Below are positions 29,401 to 47,806 of a stretch of DNA of 64,000 nt, piece by piece. A program made the translations under genes and the position numbers. The notes beneath the pieces were generated by a model. It saw only the letters and a program-made list of their open reading frames with translations, had not been told where the DNA came from and made no database searches. The stretch spans positions 6,470,976 to 6,534,975 of the forward strand of contig NC_049990.1 of assembly GCF_000003815.2 (NCBI RefSeq), read 5' to 3'. Source of the DNA: Branchiostoma floridae. Taxonomy: Eukaryota; Chordata; Leptocardii; Amphioxiformes; Branchiostomatidae. The number at the start of each line of letters is the position of its first letter. Positions within the stretch are counted from its first letter, which is position 1.

Positions 29401-31129
29401 CCTCCAAGAAATTCATCTTCTCTTGGTCGTGACAGAGAAGACAGGCGCTAAGTAGTAATACAGTATCTACATGTTCATTCAAGAGAAATCCCCCTAGCTC
29501 TTTCCCGCAATGAACAGTGAACCATGCTTTAACGTCTCATGCCGAGGACTTCAACTCTTTCTAGTAGCGTGCATATGCAGTGAACGGCACAACCGGGGTT
29601 TGAATTCCCAAGCTCGTAGTCCAGAGACGGAGTCCCTAGCGCTCGTAACACTAGACTACGTATGCTACAACGTAACAGAAACATTACAGTCTTCAAACTG
29701 AGTCAGAAAATATGTCAGTAATCCGTCAGAAAACATTACAATCTTCAATGTCAGCATTTAGATATAAGATTGTTCTTCTTCCACTCACGCCATGGGTTTA
29801 TAGTCCTTGCTGTGTTTGAAGCAGCAGCAGGCGTCCCGTCTGGCCTCCCGGCGGTACTGGTCGATCACGAGCGCCCCCATGAAGAACGTGCATTGGAACA
29901 GGAACAGGAACACGATGGCGACGGCAACGTAGATGCAGAAGGACCTCAAAGCCGGGATCGGCTGTGCGAAGGAGTAAAACACAAAAATATGATTACAAAG
30001 TATTGCCTCCGTAAAAACTGATGTATTGTTCTCGGTTGGGTTATTTTTTTGTTTGTTTGTTTAAATCACCAAAATCAAGTTCAGTTTTCAACATGATATG
30101 CTACACAGATAACAGGTACATATTCTGCAGTATTTCACCTTTTACCGAAATTTACACCCGAAGATGGCATACTTATGTTTGCAATACATATGCTACATGA
30201 AAATAGGAGAATACCTAACTGCAGCCTTGTTTTGGTGCATGACCCCAGATGACCCCAATAAATTTAAACATGACCACTGTAACTGGAAAGTGTTTCGTTT
30301 CCGTTCATGATCCGATAACCTATGAACATTAATATTTACCGATGTTGCCCCGATCCCAAAAGCCACCAGGTCGGTTATAGAGGTGACAGTGATGGACACT
30401 CCGGCGTGCTTCATCGCCTTGGCGGCGGCTTCTCGTTTGTTCTTTTTCCGTTCTTTTGGAGTCAGGTTTTCCCAGGCTTGTACAATGATGAACATGTCAT
30501 CTACTCCAACACCTGCAAAGGGCGTTGGTAGATTATAGATAGAATTGAGGCTTCGCGTGTATATGAATGCCATCGAAATAGATATGGGTACGAAGAACAT
30601 TGGTTAGAAATGCTGACCTTCAGCAATGTACGAAGATGGAAACGGAAAATTCAATTCAAAGGCTGTCCCAATTGAGAGAAATGGGTGGAATGTTGCAGGA
30701 CCAACAATTCTCGAAATATATATTCACCTTAAAAGCAAATATGATATGAAGTATAGATTAAATTCTATAACATACACAAATGCAGTGATACACAAACCAA
30801 TGGGAAGAATCAATCAATGAATGAATATATCAATGAATGGTTTAACAGATCATTATAATCATCTTTTTTGAAAGGGGAGGGCTGTAGAGTATGAAATGAC
30901 AAACCTATCAAAAGGAAAGGCATGACACTGTGGATGGGTCCGTACAGAACTCCACAAAGGGAACAGAACCCTATGGACGCTCCTGTTGCCATGCCAACGG
31001 ATGCCACGCCCAGAAGGCCGACGTAAATCTGCATGAGAACAGCATTAAGGCATGTCAGAATAAATCAACATTTCAAGCTATTCTGGTTTATGAAATAATA
31101 GACCCATGGCTTATGAATTAGTCTCCGTC

Positions 31130-39632: not shown

Positions 39633-42600
39633 ATGGCCGCTCTGCGAGGTGTTTATTTCCAGTGTCCTAAATTCGTCCACCATGTCCTGATATGGACGAT
39701 CCTATTTACGTCAGGCTGTCGTGCTTTCACCGTGAGGCAAACCAGCGATGGCGTCGACGTCCTTCTCGGCGGAACCTTGCTACTTCGCCACGAGAGAGCG
39801 AACCCCGCCATTTCGGTCGGGACAGGCACCACAGTTTTCCGTGAGCTTCATGGGAACTTCAACATCTCGGACACGGTGGACTCACGAGTTGCGTTACCTG
39901 ACGTCGCCGTGACGCAGCCCTCTCCGTCAGAGTACAGGCTTGTGTTCTCCTCTGGTGGCAACTATCAGGTAGGGATTTCTAAAAGAATTACGAAGTGGTT
40001 ATTGCTCTGATTTGTGGAGCAATTTATAAGTAATCTATTCGCACACATTTATAAGAGCAAATGTTGTCAAGGCTTCGACAAAGGTCACAGAGGTCAAAAA
40101 GAATTTTAGCGCATTTTAGAGGAGAAAATGTTTTGGTCCAACCCTCGCATAACCGCTAATTTACCATTCGAGTTGGCAAAGTCGGTCGTGCATAGTAAAT
40201 GATATATTTGACCTTCCTGGGTCACAGGGTGACAATGATTTAGCTAACAGTGCTAGTGGATTATTCTGGGCTCCAAACAAATTCTTTATTGGGGAGACGA
40301 GGATAGAAAAACGCAGACCACTAGGTACACGTACAAAAAACCGTATAAGTAGTAAATGGACCCCACATCTGCTTGGAGATATGCTTTCCTGTAATGTTCT
40401 TACTAAGGTTAACAAAACATGTTTTTTACACGTGTGATATGAAGTAAAACGTGTTAAAGAACACTAGAAAGAATGTCAAAAGTAGTTAACGTCTTGGAAA
40501 AAAGAAAGCATCTGATATATGAATCTGAAGTTATAGCGAAAGACTGAAAATAATATTGAGTCTCCTCTTTCCACATTCGGAAACGTATAATGAATGATAT
40601 AGTTTTTCTTTGTAAAATGTTTTTCTGCAGACTGAGATGAGGCTGATGACTGGGAACAAGGGGTACGATCACGTGATGAACATCTCGATCCCAGGGAACC
40701 TGGACAGAACGTGGCTGCGGCTCTACGCTGATGACGGAGAGCATGTTTATGGAGGTAAGAGCCCCTAGAGATGGTCGATCTACTTTCTCTCCCTTTCAAT
40801 GACTTTTCATAGGTAAAAAGAGAAAATTGGTAGTTGTGAGTACAAATGGGATAATTGGCAGAAAACACGAGACTGGAATGGCACGATGTAAGCATAAGCA
40901 AGTCTTCCTAAACTTGAAATTATGTAGGTGGCGTTTTTTTATGACAGGAGAGAAACATGATATGTGAACAAAAGTTAAGGTAATCCCAGTGAAAAAAGCT
41001 CAGATATTTCTGTTTGTTTGTAGCATTAACGCTTACATATCTGTGTAGATTAAGACATGAAAAGGAGAGTTTCCACAGATGTAACCTCCCCCAGCGAAGT
41101 CAAGTACATTTTCACATTGATTGGGTGATTCTAATTAAATCTCTTGATCACCGACGCCACTCTATACACCTATACATGTATTACAATATCATGGGGACAG
41201 AATGTAACATTTTGGCAATTGATTTTTTCCTGTAGGCGGGGAACAGTTTACGTACTTCGACCTGCGTGGACGGAGTTTCCCGATATGGACCCGGGAGCAG
41301 GGCGTCGGGCGGCAGCCGGGCACGTTCGTCACCGACGAGGCCAACAGACGTGACGGTGGCGGCGGGGACTACCACACCACTTACTGGCCACAGCCAACCT
41401 TCGTCTCCTCGCGGAGGTATTTCTGCCATTTTACCACCACGGACTACATGATTATGGACTTTAGCGACACCAACGCCCATGTGATACAGATGTGGGGCTC
41501 GCCGGGTGTGATTCACTTCGGCTCCGCCGCCAACTTTCGGGAAATCTCGGAACAGATCGGAGAACTGCTCGGGAGGCAGCCGGAGCTTCCCGACTGGGTG
41601 CACGACGGCGCGATTCTCGGCGTACAGGGAGGAACGAGCGAGGTTCTGAGGTACTTAGAACAAGCTGAAGCTCAGGGGGTCAAGGTCAACGCTCTGTGGA
41701 TCCAGGACTGGGCGGGAAGAATCACAACGTCCTTCGGAAGACGACTGTTCTGGAACTGGGCGTGGGACGAGAACCAGTACCCGGGACTCCGACAAGAAAT
41801 CGTCAGACAGAAGGAGCGAGGGGTCCGATTCCTCGGGTACATCAACCCGCATCTCAACAAACTCGGGGACCTGTACACCATCGCAGATTCCCGCGGATAC
41901 TTCGTGAAGAACTCCACGGGACAGACGTACATACAGGACTTCGGAGAGTTCTTCTGCGGTACCATCGACTTGACCAACCCTGCAGCCTTCCAGTGGTACA
42001 AGAACGAAGTCATCGTCAAGAACATGATCGAGCTGGGCCTGGCCGGTTGGATGGCGGACTTTGGCGAGTACCTCCCGCCCGACATGGTGTTCCACAACGG
42101 CGTTCCAGGGCGAGAGATGCACAACCTTTACCCAGCACTGTGGGCAAAGGCCAACAGAGAGGCAGTAGAAGAGTCCGGCAAACTTGGAGAAATAGGTACG
42201 ATGAGACGTTTCATTCCTTCTGCTAAATCCATGGGAACTTGAAAAGCTGCGTAAACTTTCTTGATGTTTTACTTATTATTAAAAGATTAGTTTTAGGTCC
42301 CAGTACAAAGACAAATTATGGAACTCTCTCGACCACAACTGTTTCCCTCTTGTCTACAACTTATCAGCCTTGGAAACAAATGTCCACCGCTATCTCCGTG
42401 CACAGTTATTTCCAACTTCTGAGTTCATTACCACGAGGTGGTCTAATGACCTTGCTCTGAACAAACTCCTTAAAGAAAGGTTGCTGAAAACTGAAATAGA
42501 TCGCATGCAAAAAGAATTATTTTCATAAAGAAATGCAGAGATTTCAACGATACTTTACAACAATAGATGTTATAGGTATATCATTATATGTACGAATTTC

Positions 42601-45453
42601 AGTGTTCTGGATGCGGGCTGGGTTCTCCGGCAGTCAGAACTACTCCGTGATGTCCTGGGCCGGAGACCAGTTTGTAGACTACAGTCTGGGTGACGGGCTG
42701 GCGTCAGTCATTCCCGCCGCCTTGTCTCTAGGGGTGTCCGGCTACGGGCTGTCCCACTTCGACATCGGGGGATTCACCAGGTAACGTTATAGATAGATCC
42801 CGACTGTCAATCAAGATAAGTTTTTATTCAAAGATTCGTTTAAGGTTCCTCGGAGTGTCTCTTGGAGTGTCCGGCTACTTCCGTTTTTACGAAGGGAATA
42901 CTTAGTACATATCTTACGCATTGTCTTTCATTTCAGCTTGTTTGGGATAACACGTACGGAAGAGTTACTTCTCCGCTACACAGAAATGGCCGTCTTCACA
43001 CCGATGATACGGACCCACGAAGGTAATCGACCAGCAGATAACTGGCAGGTAAACGTTTTTGTTTTCTTTCACATGTATGTCTCTATTGTATACCACATTT
43101 AAACGGGCAGTTGCTTCCAATACAAGGAATTGGACTGCCTATATAATGGCCAACCAAACTTCATGGAAGGGGGACGATATCAACTTTGACCCATGACCCA
43201 CAACATGCATCATTCACATGTTCTCAGAAGTGGGACCAATCATCCTGAGTCAGGTCGTAGCTACAGTCGAATATTATGTTACTCTGTTTCATCTAGTAGT
43301 TAGATGCTACAATGATGTCTGTCATAATTCATGCCCGTAATCTCAGTCACGTTCGTCATCAAAATTCTTGACCCTGCAGGAGCGACACCTGGCTGCTGTG
43401 CGAAATATCATGGGCCAGTCAGATATGTCTGAGGAGGGAAACAGACGGTCACCAAATTAAATAGATATTAATGTATTAGTTGTATACAAAGAACTTTGCT
43501 ATCCTTGGTTTTGTAACGTTACAATGATGTACATTTCCAGGTGTACTCCTCTGACAGCACGCTGCAGCACTTTGCCCGGCTGGTGGACGTGCACGTCAGT
43601 CTGAAGGACTACATCCGGGAACTCGTGCAGAACAACAGCCGTTACAACCTCCCCGTGCAGAGGCCGCTGTTCTTCCACTACCAGGAGGATCCGGCGGTAA
43701 ATTCCCCTTCTGATATCTAATTTGTGAATCTTGGTACTGTTTTTGATGTGTATGCGAGTCTGCGTGTGTACATGAATGTTTGTGATGTGAAGTGGAGCGG
43801 ACTCATTCCTCACGTTACCTACATCTTTCGCACTGCAGTCGTCTCGCGGAAAGACATCTGGAAACGCATTGTTGTTGTTTATCACAACCGGATTGCTTGC
43901 GTAAAACGCCTTAGTTATACTTACAACTTCACAGCATCACTCTACTTTACATTGCACATGTGTTTAGTTAGTTTTTCAATTCTTGGCCAGCTAAGCAGAA
44001 GCTATGAATGAATTGTAAGGAATGTTTGCAATGTTTTCTTGTTTGTTTGTTTTGTTGTTTGGTTGGTTTGTCGGTAGCATATATTGATACTACAACTTTC
44101 CCAGGTGTACAGCATCAAGTACCAGTACCTGTTCGGACCGGATGTGTTGGTGGCACCTGTGTACATGGAAGGCGTGGACTCCTGGCAGGTGTACCTACCC
44201 GAGGGGGACACCTGGGTAAGAAATCTTCACTATCTATTCAAATTAATGTACACGACATACAATGTTCGACGTAAACAATGAACAAAGTTGTCTTTAAACA
44301 ATCTTCTTTAATTTGTCAGTAAACTTTTCGACGACCATCTATCGCCTAAGAATTAAAGTAAGTTGTATAACGAAGAAGACTTTGTTCAATTGATCCTATT
44401 TACGGAAATGGTTTTAGAAAAACCATGTCCGTTAAAAGTGCATATGTCAGTCCCAGAAGTAACTAACGACAATGTCAACAAAAATTTATACTTTAAGTGT
44501 GGCAAAAGGCATTTGATCTGTATCTGTCTTGTCCACATGCATAGCATTACATATTTTTAATGAAAATTAATTACATGTTTAATTAAGTACAAAACCAGAT
44601 TAATGATGGATTGGCACGTTTCACCAAGTGCTGACGTCGCGTATCCGCAAAATCACATGTTTATAGATCACGTGTTAACAAAATCCCGTGTCTGTACGCA
44701 ACTCTCGCGAGTATACGTTCTGAAGTGATTGGTCATCAGTATTGATCCTGAAGAAGGCGACTTTGGTCGTTGAAAATTTTATCCTTGTATACCTTTGTAC
44801 TGTAAGAAAGTTTAGCATTGTACTAAGATATCATTATTTTTGGAATGCTACATTTATTTCTTTGTTACGTTGTTGCCAGGTCCATCTGTGGAGTGACAGA
44901 AGCTATGACGGCGGCCAATTGGTGACAGTGGACGCACCCCTCGGGCAGACGCCATTTTTCTTCCGAGCGGCCTCCAGATGGGCATCCTTGTTCAGGACAG
45001 TCGCTAGAGGCACGTACTTTGAATCTTTCTATTTCGGACATCTAATCATACCTATGGAGAGAAAGGGTGGAGAGAGGAGGGGAAGAGGCGGAGGGAAGAG
45101 TTTTAAGTATAAAAACAATCTTATTTTTGTACTGCATGACTATAGATAGAACACTCTGCATATTAAGCTATTGGAACAAGTGGGTAATTCATTGATTGAA
45201 TGAATGACTATAATGTATGGGTCCATTAACACATATGAAAAGTCAACAAAAACAAATGCTGCCTGGTTTTCTGTGGCAAACTTTTATATTGATTAATGAG
45301 ACAAAAATCATCACTGCCTTAATAATGTTTTGTCTTTTTCCTTTTTCAGACAACCCTCTGCCAGTGAACGGAACGAGCTTTCACCGCATCATCCTACCTT
45401 ACGTCACAGCTATAATCGCCATCTTTGTCTTCTTCTGGTTCCGAAATCAGTGA
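39633..45453 (+). CDS. GH31 sulfoquinovosidase-like glycosidase, membrane-anchored (736 aa, 9 exons)
   Basis: Exons: 39633-39968, 40631-40754, 41236-42195, 42603-42780, 42937-43048, 43541-43696, 44105-44215, 44880-45009 and 45350-45453, totalling 2211 nt. Intron 8 is GC-AG; the rest are GT-AG. The start ATG is in AACATGGCC and opens a signal peptide (about residues 1-31). The GH31 catalytic region resembles the bacterial sulfoquinovosidase YihQ rather than lysosomal, ER or brush-border alpha-glucosidases. Shared stretches are GVQGGT, QDWAG, TSFGRRLFWNW, WMADFGEYLP (nucleophile Asp428), SWAGDQ (acid/base Asp495), FTPMIRTHEGNRP and LVAPV. The sulfonate-pocket residues Gln, Arg and Trp of that enzyme correspond to Gln310, Arg323 and Trp326; its pocket Tyr is Phe531 here. 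Known family role: release of sulfoquinovose from plant and algal sulfolipid headgroups. A C-terminal hydrophobic segment (about 712-732) predicts a type I membrane anchor with an extracellular or lumenal enzyme, plausibly digestive. Substrate is inferred, not shown; a related alpha-glycosidase activity remains possible. Confidence 0.9.
42313..42528 (+). mobile_element. Possible LINE reverse-transcriptase C-terminal remnant
   Basis: An open 71-codon frame ending in TAA lies in intron 3 of the GH31 gene. It contains KLWNSLDHN, then NLSALETNVHRYLRAQLF, which follows the L-W-N-S-L ... F-x-x-x-L pattern common at the C-terminus of non-LTR retrotransposon proteins. I see no fingers or palm motifs. 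Read-through from exon 3 does not enter this frame in phase, and homology would not place it in GH31. Confidence 0.3.
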
Positions 45454-46113: not shown

Positions 46114-46740
46114 ATGTCAGCTTGGGTGAAGACCATCTGGTGTCTTCTTTGCGCTCACCAGCTGATAACCTGTGCAAATGCAGCCGTAAAAGAACGGCAT
46201 TATTTTGTCGCTTGTAAAGAAGTGTTGTGGGACTACGCACCGGGAAGCTACAACAAGATCACCAACACCGCCATTTCTGACGACAGGTAAATCATTTTAC
46301 AATAATGCGACGGTATATCCAAACGTTTTCGGTCTCACGCGCAAAAGAGGGTTGCTTAGGGGACGTAAGTCTAATTTTTGTAAATAACTACGCAGTATGA
46401 AAAAAGTATGATTGAATTGTTAAAGCTATCCCGGCCCCCCAAAAATGTGAGTGTCCGTTGTTTCAGGGTGAACCTGAGAAGTTTTTGACGTACCCAGGAT
46501 TGGTACAATAACCTAGTGAGTAGAGTATTCTCCTTACATGCAATATCAATACAGGCTGAGTCATACGAAATGGTACATACTGCTTTCTGTGCTTAGCAAT
46601 TGGCGTTTGGAAAAAAATATGGGAGTTGAACCGATACGAGAGGACTATTCCCCGGATGTAGTGCTTCCACAAGTTGAGTGGTACCGCACTTAGTTGACAA
46701 GAACATCGTGTCTAAAGTACCCTGCAAGGTACTGCGGTGT

Positions 46741-47020
46741 ACCGAAAGTGCGAAAAAGAACGAAAAGGAGCGAAAAGGAACGAAAAGGAACGAAAAGGAG
46801 CGAAAAGGAACGAAAAGGAGCGAAAAGGAACGAAAGGGAACGAAAAGGAGCGAAAAGGAACGAAAAGGAACGAAAGGGAAAGTACCGAAAGTGCGAAAAG
46901 GAACGAAAAGGAAAGTACCGAAAGTGCGAAAAGGAACGAAAAGGAACGAAAAGATTGGATAGGAACGAAAAGGAACGAAAAGGAAATTACCGAAAGTGCG
47001 AAAAGGAACGAAAAGGAACG
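46741..47020. repeat. GAACGAAAAG minisatellite, forward arm
   Basis: A roughly 280-bp array of 10-bp units GAACGAAAAG and GAGCGAAAAG is punctuated by longer units AAAGTACCGAAAGTGCGAAAA. It begins TACCGAAAGTGCG. Long Lys/Arg/Glu-rich and Phe/Ser-rich open frames through it, on both strands, are artefacts of the repeat. It lies in the intron of the oxidase fragment, left of the assembly gap. Confidence 0.95.
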
Positions 47021-47292
47021 GGTTCCCACGCGGGCTGTCACAGATCAAATTGGGGGGAGGGGGTGGGGGATTGAAAGCCGCTGAGTAGCGCGCTAGAAAA
47101 ACGTTTGACGAGTTGACATTCTGGTGTAGGTTATTTTTCTACGGTCCCAAAAATGTCACAAAGTCGTTTTCTAGTGGTCCCGGCCTGAATTATAAGTGGC
47201 CCCGGGCAATCGGGACACCGCGTTGATTTCAACTCGAGGCCTGGCTCCAAAGACTTTTTCTGCCCGAACCCGCACGGGAGACGTGTGTCGCC

Positions 47293-47392
47293 NNNNNNNN
47301 NNNNNNNNNNNNNNNNNNNNNNNNNNNNNNNNNNNNNNNNNNNNNNNNNNNNNNNNNNNNNNNNNNNNNNNNNNNNNNNNNNNNNNNNNNNN
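47293..47392. other. Assembly gap (100 N)
   Basis: Exactly 100 Ns, the conventional placeholder for a gap of unknown length. The right edge lies in minisatellite sequence and the left edge 270 bp beyond the forward arm. The missing exon 2 of the oxidase fragment may be here. Confidence 0.99.
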
Positions 47393-47554
47393 CCTTTTCG
47401 TTCCTTTTCGTTCCTTTTCGTTCCTTTTCGTTCCTTTTCGCACTTTCGGTACTTTCCTTTTCGTTCCTTTTCGTTCCTTTTCGTTCCTTTTCGTTCCTTT
47501 TCGTTCCTTTTCGTTTCTTTTCGTTCCTTTTCGTTCCTTTTCGCACTTTCGGTA
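47393..47554. repeat. GAACGAAAAG minisatellite, inverted arm
   Basis: The same units as 46741-47020 but read as CCTTTTCGTT, that is, reverse-complemented. It ends with CGCACTTTCGGTA, the mirror of the forward arm's TACCGAAAGTGCG boundary. The two arms thus face each other across the N gap. Confidence 0.95.
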
Positions 47555-47806
47555 GACCCAGGTACTGCTACACAGGTCTACACGTTCTAGACCAACTTTC
47601 TTACATACTACGTTGTCCAAATTCCGCACAGTATTTTCGAGTGAAAAAAGTTCAATGGGGTATTCAATTTTGACAAGATCCGTAGCTAGTCGAGTCGACG
47701 GTTTTGTCATAATCGCCAAAATTCCCTAGCCTAAGTATCAGTACTGTCTATTCATCACATTATTTTAGATCAAAAAAGTTTTTAAAACCGTGATAATGGT
47801 TTCACA

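Follow-up and report, generated by a model that had tools for sequence, protein, structure and literature searches.

A YihQ-type family 31 glycoside hydrolase with a predicted membrane anchor and an altered pocket residue in the amphioxus genome

Does an animal genome encode a glycoside hydrolase of family 31 (GH31) that belongs with the bacterial sulfoquinovosidases, and would such a protein act on sulfoquinovosides? The question is raised by a gene in the window, by which we mean the whole 64,000-nucleotide stretch of DNA that was analysed. A reading made from the letters alone (the sequence-only reading) had proposed a membrane-anchored, sulfoquinovosidase-like GH31 enzyme.

Sulfoquinovose output is about ten billion tonnes per year, and sulfoquinovosidases of family GH188 are reported to have members in plants and a red alga, according to an excerpt of one paper (PMC10755693). 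A 2022 review, in its accessible sections, notes that degradation has been detected in plants and algae and calls the responsible eukaryotic enzymes unidentified (PMC9594981), while the available text of a 2026 review describes the known sulfoquinovose pathways as all bacterial (PMC12890257). The plant and algal members of GH188, a family unrelated to GH31, speak against a flat claim that there is no eukaryotic sulfoquinovosidase. The NAD-dependent GH188 enzyme SqgA acts on the same substrate class, but it belongs to another family than the GH31 window protein and uses an oxidoreductive mechanism. Kinetics have been established for the bacterial sulfoquinovosidases (PMC11968277, as excerpted), and a 2025 study, according to an excerpt, failed to detect sulfoquinovosidase activity in human cells (PMC12330013).

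A literature search, which covered few subscription papers and so does not prove absence, found no paper that joins sulfoquinovosidase and amphioxus. In public databases, some proteins of marine invertebrates carry automated "sulfoquinovosidase-like" names; the same search, with its small share of subscription papers, found no paper containing that phrase, and none of the papers using the word sulfoquinovosidase had an animal enzyme in the title. The available part of an oyster paper has a sulfoquinovosidase among Vibrio genes in a table.

Gene structure, duplication and membrane anchoring

The gene lies on contig C12 (22,973,701 bases) of a genome of 513,431,437 bases in 431 contigs. It has nine exons on the forward strand, from 39633 to 45453, and encodes a GH31 protein of 736 residues. 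The ATG at 39633 is the earliest downstream of an in-frame stop, the frame being open from 39594, and the TGA stop codon ends at 45453. Seven of the eight introns are GT-AG, and intron 8 is GC-AG with its donor at 45010. The frame is unbroken on splicing, which agrees with the earlier description of an intron-rich eukaryotic gene. The features are given below; paralogue B is a second gene of this type on the same contig.

39633..39968, forward strand, exon 1: contains the start codon, a putative leader peptide (judged by eye) and the beginning of the N-terminal domain
40631..40754, forward strand, exon 2: the introns on either side correspond to introns of paralogue B, by position and by phase
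41236..42195, forward strand, exon 3: completes the N-terminal domain and encodes the first part of the GH31 barrel
41236..42195, forward strand, residues in exon 3: Q284, Q310, R323 and W326 (pocket) and D428 (nucleophile)
42603..42780, forward strand, exon 4: D495 (acid/base) and F531 (at the position of YihQ Y508)
42937..43048, forward strand, exon 5: H560 and the motif RTHEGNRP
43541..43696, forward strand, exon 6: from the spliced gene model
44105..44215, forward strand, exon 7: within the C-terminal beta domain
44880..45009, forward strand, exon 8: end of the part alignable with YihQ; the GC-AG intron follows
45350..45453, forward strand, exon 9: linker, then the membrane helix at the C-terminus, a very short tail and the stop codon

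Paralogue B (L031, C12:6873500-6883400) occupies C12:6874688-6880684 on the reverse strand and is separated from the window gene by about 358 kb. Its eight exons encode 757 residues, of which 412/726 (56.7%) are identical to the window protein and 311/677 to YihQ. With the copies 56.7% identical, the duplication is old. Four of the eight introns of the window gene are shared with paralogue B at an identical alignment column and phase, one of them immediately 5' of the exon for the membrane helix; these shared introns therefore most likely predate the duplication. In a genome search at the DNA level, with the best candidates scored, the only full-length match to exon 3 was exon 3 itself, and a haplotype duplicate was rejected. 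A partial match, 74% identical, fell in paralogue B.

The window protein has a hydrophobic helix at about residues 715–734, with a mean Kyte-Doolittle value of 2.13, followed by a very short tail. Six N-glycosylation sequons are present and the last lies near the helix. At the N-terminus there is a short putative leader, assessed by eye; no 19-residue segment there exceeds 1.6 on the Kyte-Doolittle scale. Of the signal peptide and transmembrane helix in the sequence-only reading, the helix is clear and the leader putative. Paralogue B also ends in a membrane helix of its own and has a leader-like N-terminus by eye. We infer the leader peptide, the orientation and the site in the gut; the simplest reading is that the window protein would be a type I membrane protein facing outward or into a vacuole. 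Amphioxus digests food in the gut lumen and also by phagocytosis into the epithelial cells of the diverticulum (PMC6015868, in the part available). Because it digests in both ways, a vacuole is no less likely a site than the brush border.

Family assignment and phylogenetic position

E. coli K-12 b3878 served as the YihQ reference. The window protein scored 894.8 bits (E = 3.7e-269) against the NCBIfam model of the YihQ type, NF007746, well over the cut-off of 553. As controls, K-12 YihQ scored 1246.6 bits, paralogue B 830.7 and E. coli YicI 241. An alpha-xylosidase model gave 198 bits on the window protein, below its cut-off of 606. Among Pfam models, the GH31 barrel (PF01055) and the C-terminal domain passed their cut-offs; the mutarotase-like domain at the N-terminus reached 25.7, marginally below its cut-off of 27. 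The genome-wide search with NF007746 scores exons separately, and so no exon reaches a cut-off set for whole proteins. In that search 0/14 known control genomes rose above the cut-off; six of the 14 gave a signal, an E. coli of unnamed strain among them. We take this as a probable limit of the control and not a fault of the model, since K-12 YihQ itself passes the model easily.

In a search of the PDB, the top six distinct sequences were YihQ and proteins of its type, at 667–764 bits (E = 1.3e-228 to 3.5e-199). The next-best GH31 protein beyond this type scored 162 bits among the 60 best of 61 matches. The highest scores within the same 60 were 97 bits for GANAB, 79 for MGAM, 64 for GAA and 55 for MYORG; SI scored 42. 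One entry, 8R56, labeled "Glycosyl hydrolase, family 31", we take to be a sulfoquinovosidase. The Eubacterium rectale enzyme SftG (PDB 6PNR) and the Agrobacterium sulfoquinovosidase (PDB 5OHS, 5OHY) are of the same type and scored 667–671 bits. Identity to E. coli YihQ (PDB 5AED, 5OHT) is 333/669 (49.8%), compared with 147/657 for YicI. YihQ and the window protein have the same nucleophile, the same acid/base and four of the five pocket residues in common. They differ in that YihQ has no membrane helix by hydropathy, and its gene is clustered with sulfoquinovose catabolic genes. Animal MYORG is also a GH31 protein, but it scored only 53.7–55.2 bits to the window protein, and this genome has its own MYORG-type gene, L032.

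A phylogeny of GH31 proteins had been proposed as one check on the sequence-only reading. The bacterial comparison set was the best 80 of 574 confirmed loci, at least 574 being in existence. A quick tree was built with 44/80 of these loci and a careful tree with 33/80, each including both animal copies. YicI and other amphioxus GH31 genes, two in the quick tree and one in the careful tree, were the outgroups; for GAA, SI/MGAM and GANAB the comparison was by score only. The clade of sulfoquinovosidases, which included the two animal copies, split from the outgroups with SH-aLRT support of 99 (quick) and 98/98 (careful), and the outgroup branches were extremely long in both trees. The two animal copies formed a pair with support of 100 (quick) and 100/100 (careful). 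The window protein thus joins the bacterial sulfoquinovosidases, with GAA, SI and GANAB set apart by score alone. Together, the family model, the PDB scores and the trees bear out the claim that the core follows YihQ and not the usual animal GH31 enzymes, and on sequence grounds this animal genome encodes a GH31 protein of the YihQ type.

Within the clade, the animal pair adjoined L102 (2241-4229), a Ruminococcaceae sequence from a rumen metagenome, with support of 82 (quick) and 97/98 (careful). This attachment is not to be trusted because the branch is long, and the adjacency may be an artefact. The gene may stem from an ancient transfer from bacteria or from descent. One scan of viral contigs, with the window protein as query, turned up no relative.

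Catalytic and sulfonate-pocket residues

The sequence-only reading had matched Q310, R323, W326, D428 and D495 to YihQ residues Q288, R301, W304, D405 and D472, and the alignment places all five exactly so. In addition, Q284 aligns with YihQ Q262. D428, E431, D495 and H560 are all conserved in the window protein. In YihQ the five pocket residues bind the sulfonate. One pocket position had been overlooked: F531 of the window protein stands where YihQ has Tyr508, and the pocket changes from Q-Q-R-W-Y to Q-Q-R-W-F. The Tyr508 hydroxyl in the YihQ structures holds a water that contacts the sulfonate. Compared with the two five-residue pockets Q-Q-R-W-Y and K-E-R-W-Y, the window protein has 4/5 residues and paralogue B has 5/5, its pocket being Q-Q-R-W-Y with Tyr534 at the position of Y508. 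On parsimony, the change from Tyr to Phe would have occurred on the lineage of the window gene.

Among the best 80 of 574 bacterial loci, position 508 is Tyr in 79/80 and Phe in 1/80. Position 262 is Gln in 64/80 and Lys in 16/80, and position 288 is Gln in 64/80 and Glu in 16/80. Arg is found at 301 in 79/80, Trp at 304 in 80/80, and Asp at both 405 and 472 in 80/80. K-E-R-W-Y replaces Q-Q-R-W-Y in 16 of these 80 loci, including one from an Agrobacterium (L106), and none of the 80 has the pocket Q-Q-R-W-F. The sole Phe508 row of the 80 is L082 (2601-4619), from a Bacillota metagenome genome; its pocket reads Q-Q-Q-W-F, with Gln at 301. The loss of R301 together with Phe508 hints at a changed substrate in L082.

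Near-invariant columns (128) were defined over 81 bacterial sequences, the 80 loci plus YihQ. The window protein keeps 119/128, paralogue B 117/128 and YicI 54/128. As the window copy keeps about as many columns as its paralogue, it is not specially relaxed. Besides Y508 the window protein changes eight columns, five of which (K159, W429, F453, S503 and W524) are changed in both animal copies; S503, five residues before Y508, is aromatic in both. In a leave-one-out comparison the median bacterial row kept all its columns, the lowest was L082 (118/134) and the next L102 (124/131), so that the animal proteins diverge more than every bacterial row except L082. Such a departure may be expected of a distant lineage.

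Proposed function and alternatives

Because the pocket tyrosine is Phe, the window protein is a YihQ-clade protein and not a proven sulfoquinovosidase. The earlier proposal of a sulfoquinovosidase-like enzyme stands in its clade, its catalytic and most of its pocket residues, and its helix; the replacement of Y508 by Phe531 counts against it. We infer the substrate and the biological role. On balance we favour a membrane-anchored animal GH31 protein of the YihQ clade that would act as a retaining exo-alpha-glycosidase on sulfoquinovosides. With the near-invariant Y508 replaced by Phe, sulfoquinovosidase activity is less certain for the window copy than for paralogue B. Sulfoquinovosides are the likely substrates of both, more securely so for paralogue B, which by its pocket is the better candidate for standard sulfoquinovosidase activity.

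The catalytic domain would lie outside the cell or in a vacuole, tethered by the C-terminal helix. By analogy with the bacterial enzymes, D428 would attack the anomeric carbon, and D495 would protonate the leaving group and then activate water, while R323, W326, Q284 and Q310 would grip the C6 sulfonate of sulfoquinovose. Lipases would strip the fatty acids off algal sulfolipid, leaving sulfoquinovosyl glycerol as the natural substrate, and its cleavage would yield sulfoquinovose and glycerol. Pancreatic lipases of mammals are reported, in an excerpt of PMC12330013, to turn sulfolipid into sulfoquinovosyl glycerol. The genome was also searched with the E. coli aldolase YihT and gave no match, a result that is uninformative as the search had no positive control. 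Phe531 lacks the hydroxyl, and affinity for sulfoquinovose could drop or the substrate could shift; since Phe replaces the pocket tyrosine, sulfonate binding in the window copy has probably been re-tuned.

The strongest competing explanation, to which we give odds of roughly one in four, is that the window copy shifted its substrate after the duplication, for instance to a differently sulfonated or sulfated alpha-glycoside or to a neutral one, and that paralogue B kept the sulfoquinovosidase activity. The change from Y508 to F531 is confined to the window copy, paralogue B retaining Q-Q-R-W-Y; the duplication is old, as the identity of the copies indicates; and L082, the lone Phe row in the best 80 of 574 bacterial loci, is likewise altered, to Q-Q-Q-W-F. 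However, the equivalents of Q262, Q288, R301 and W304 are all retained in the window copy, its near-invariant columns (119 against 117 of 128 in the paralogue) argue against general relaxation, and the pocket water could persist without the tyrosine hydroxyl.

A non-catalytic or non-digestive surface protein, such as a sensor or binding protein, we consider improbable. The membrane helix and the changes at the pocket and neighbouring positions would suit such a protein, but D428, E431, D495 and H560 are intact, and because they are kept catalysis is favoured over a sensor role.

Two further explanations are refuted and retain almost no probability. An ordinary animal GH31 protein of the GAA, SI/MGAM, GANAB or MYORG type, resembling YihQ by chance, would belong to the same fold family (PF01055), but scores favour the YihQ type by hundreds of bits, the genome has a distinct gene of the MYORG type (L032, which scores 527 bits to MYORG), and both trees put the window gene with the bacterial sulfoquinovosidases. 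Contamination of the assembly by bacterial DNA, or a bacterial gene of very recent arrival, would fit with the relatives retrieved from outside the host genome, which are all bacterial, but is contradicted by the eight introns, the C-terminal membrane helix, the paralogue about 358 kb away with four common introns, the 22,973,701-base contig, and the nearby open frames of Patched type (61 bits) and of weak multicopper-oxidase likeness. The four introns that match in position and phase point to an old, duplicated animal gene rather than contamination.

Returning to the YihQ-clade glycosidase, the kind of enzyme is known; what is new is an animal form that is rich in introns, anchored by a membrane helix and altered in its pocket. 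If the protein is a sulfoquinovosidase, the opening step of sulfolipid digestion would fall to the filter-feeding animal itself. As one paralogue has the pocket tyrosine and the other lacks it, the pair makes a natural test of the role of that residue. More tentatively, and with the odds against it, animals, or at least this chordate, might digest algal sulfolipid with enzymes of their own, an old, intron-rich, anchored pair of which one has the bacterial pocket and the other a re-tuned Q-Q-R-W-F pocket for a second sulfonated sugar.

Other features of the window and the genome were also recorded. A scan of 19 open frames in the window found four (one forward, three reverse) between 48604 and 58389 that are weakly Cu-oxidase_3-like, at 20.6 to 25.1 bits against a cut-off of 21, which points to multicopper-oxidase-like genes as neighbours of the GH31 gene. 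An open frame at 30196-30603 on the reverse strand is similar to Patched and sterol-sensing domains (61.1 and 48.1 bits). A short-period repeat at 46690-47700 reads as open frames rich in Lys, Glu and Arg, for which no gene was inferred. Elsewhere in the genome, on contigs C2 and C15, L032, L033, L034 and L035 are GH31 genes with long open frames. L034 and L035 are similar by eye to L032, the gene with 527 bits to MYORG, and the genome may thus hold several MYORG-type genes.
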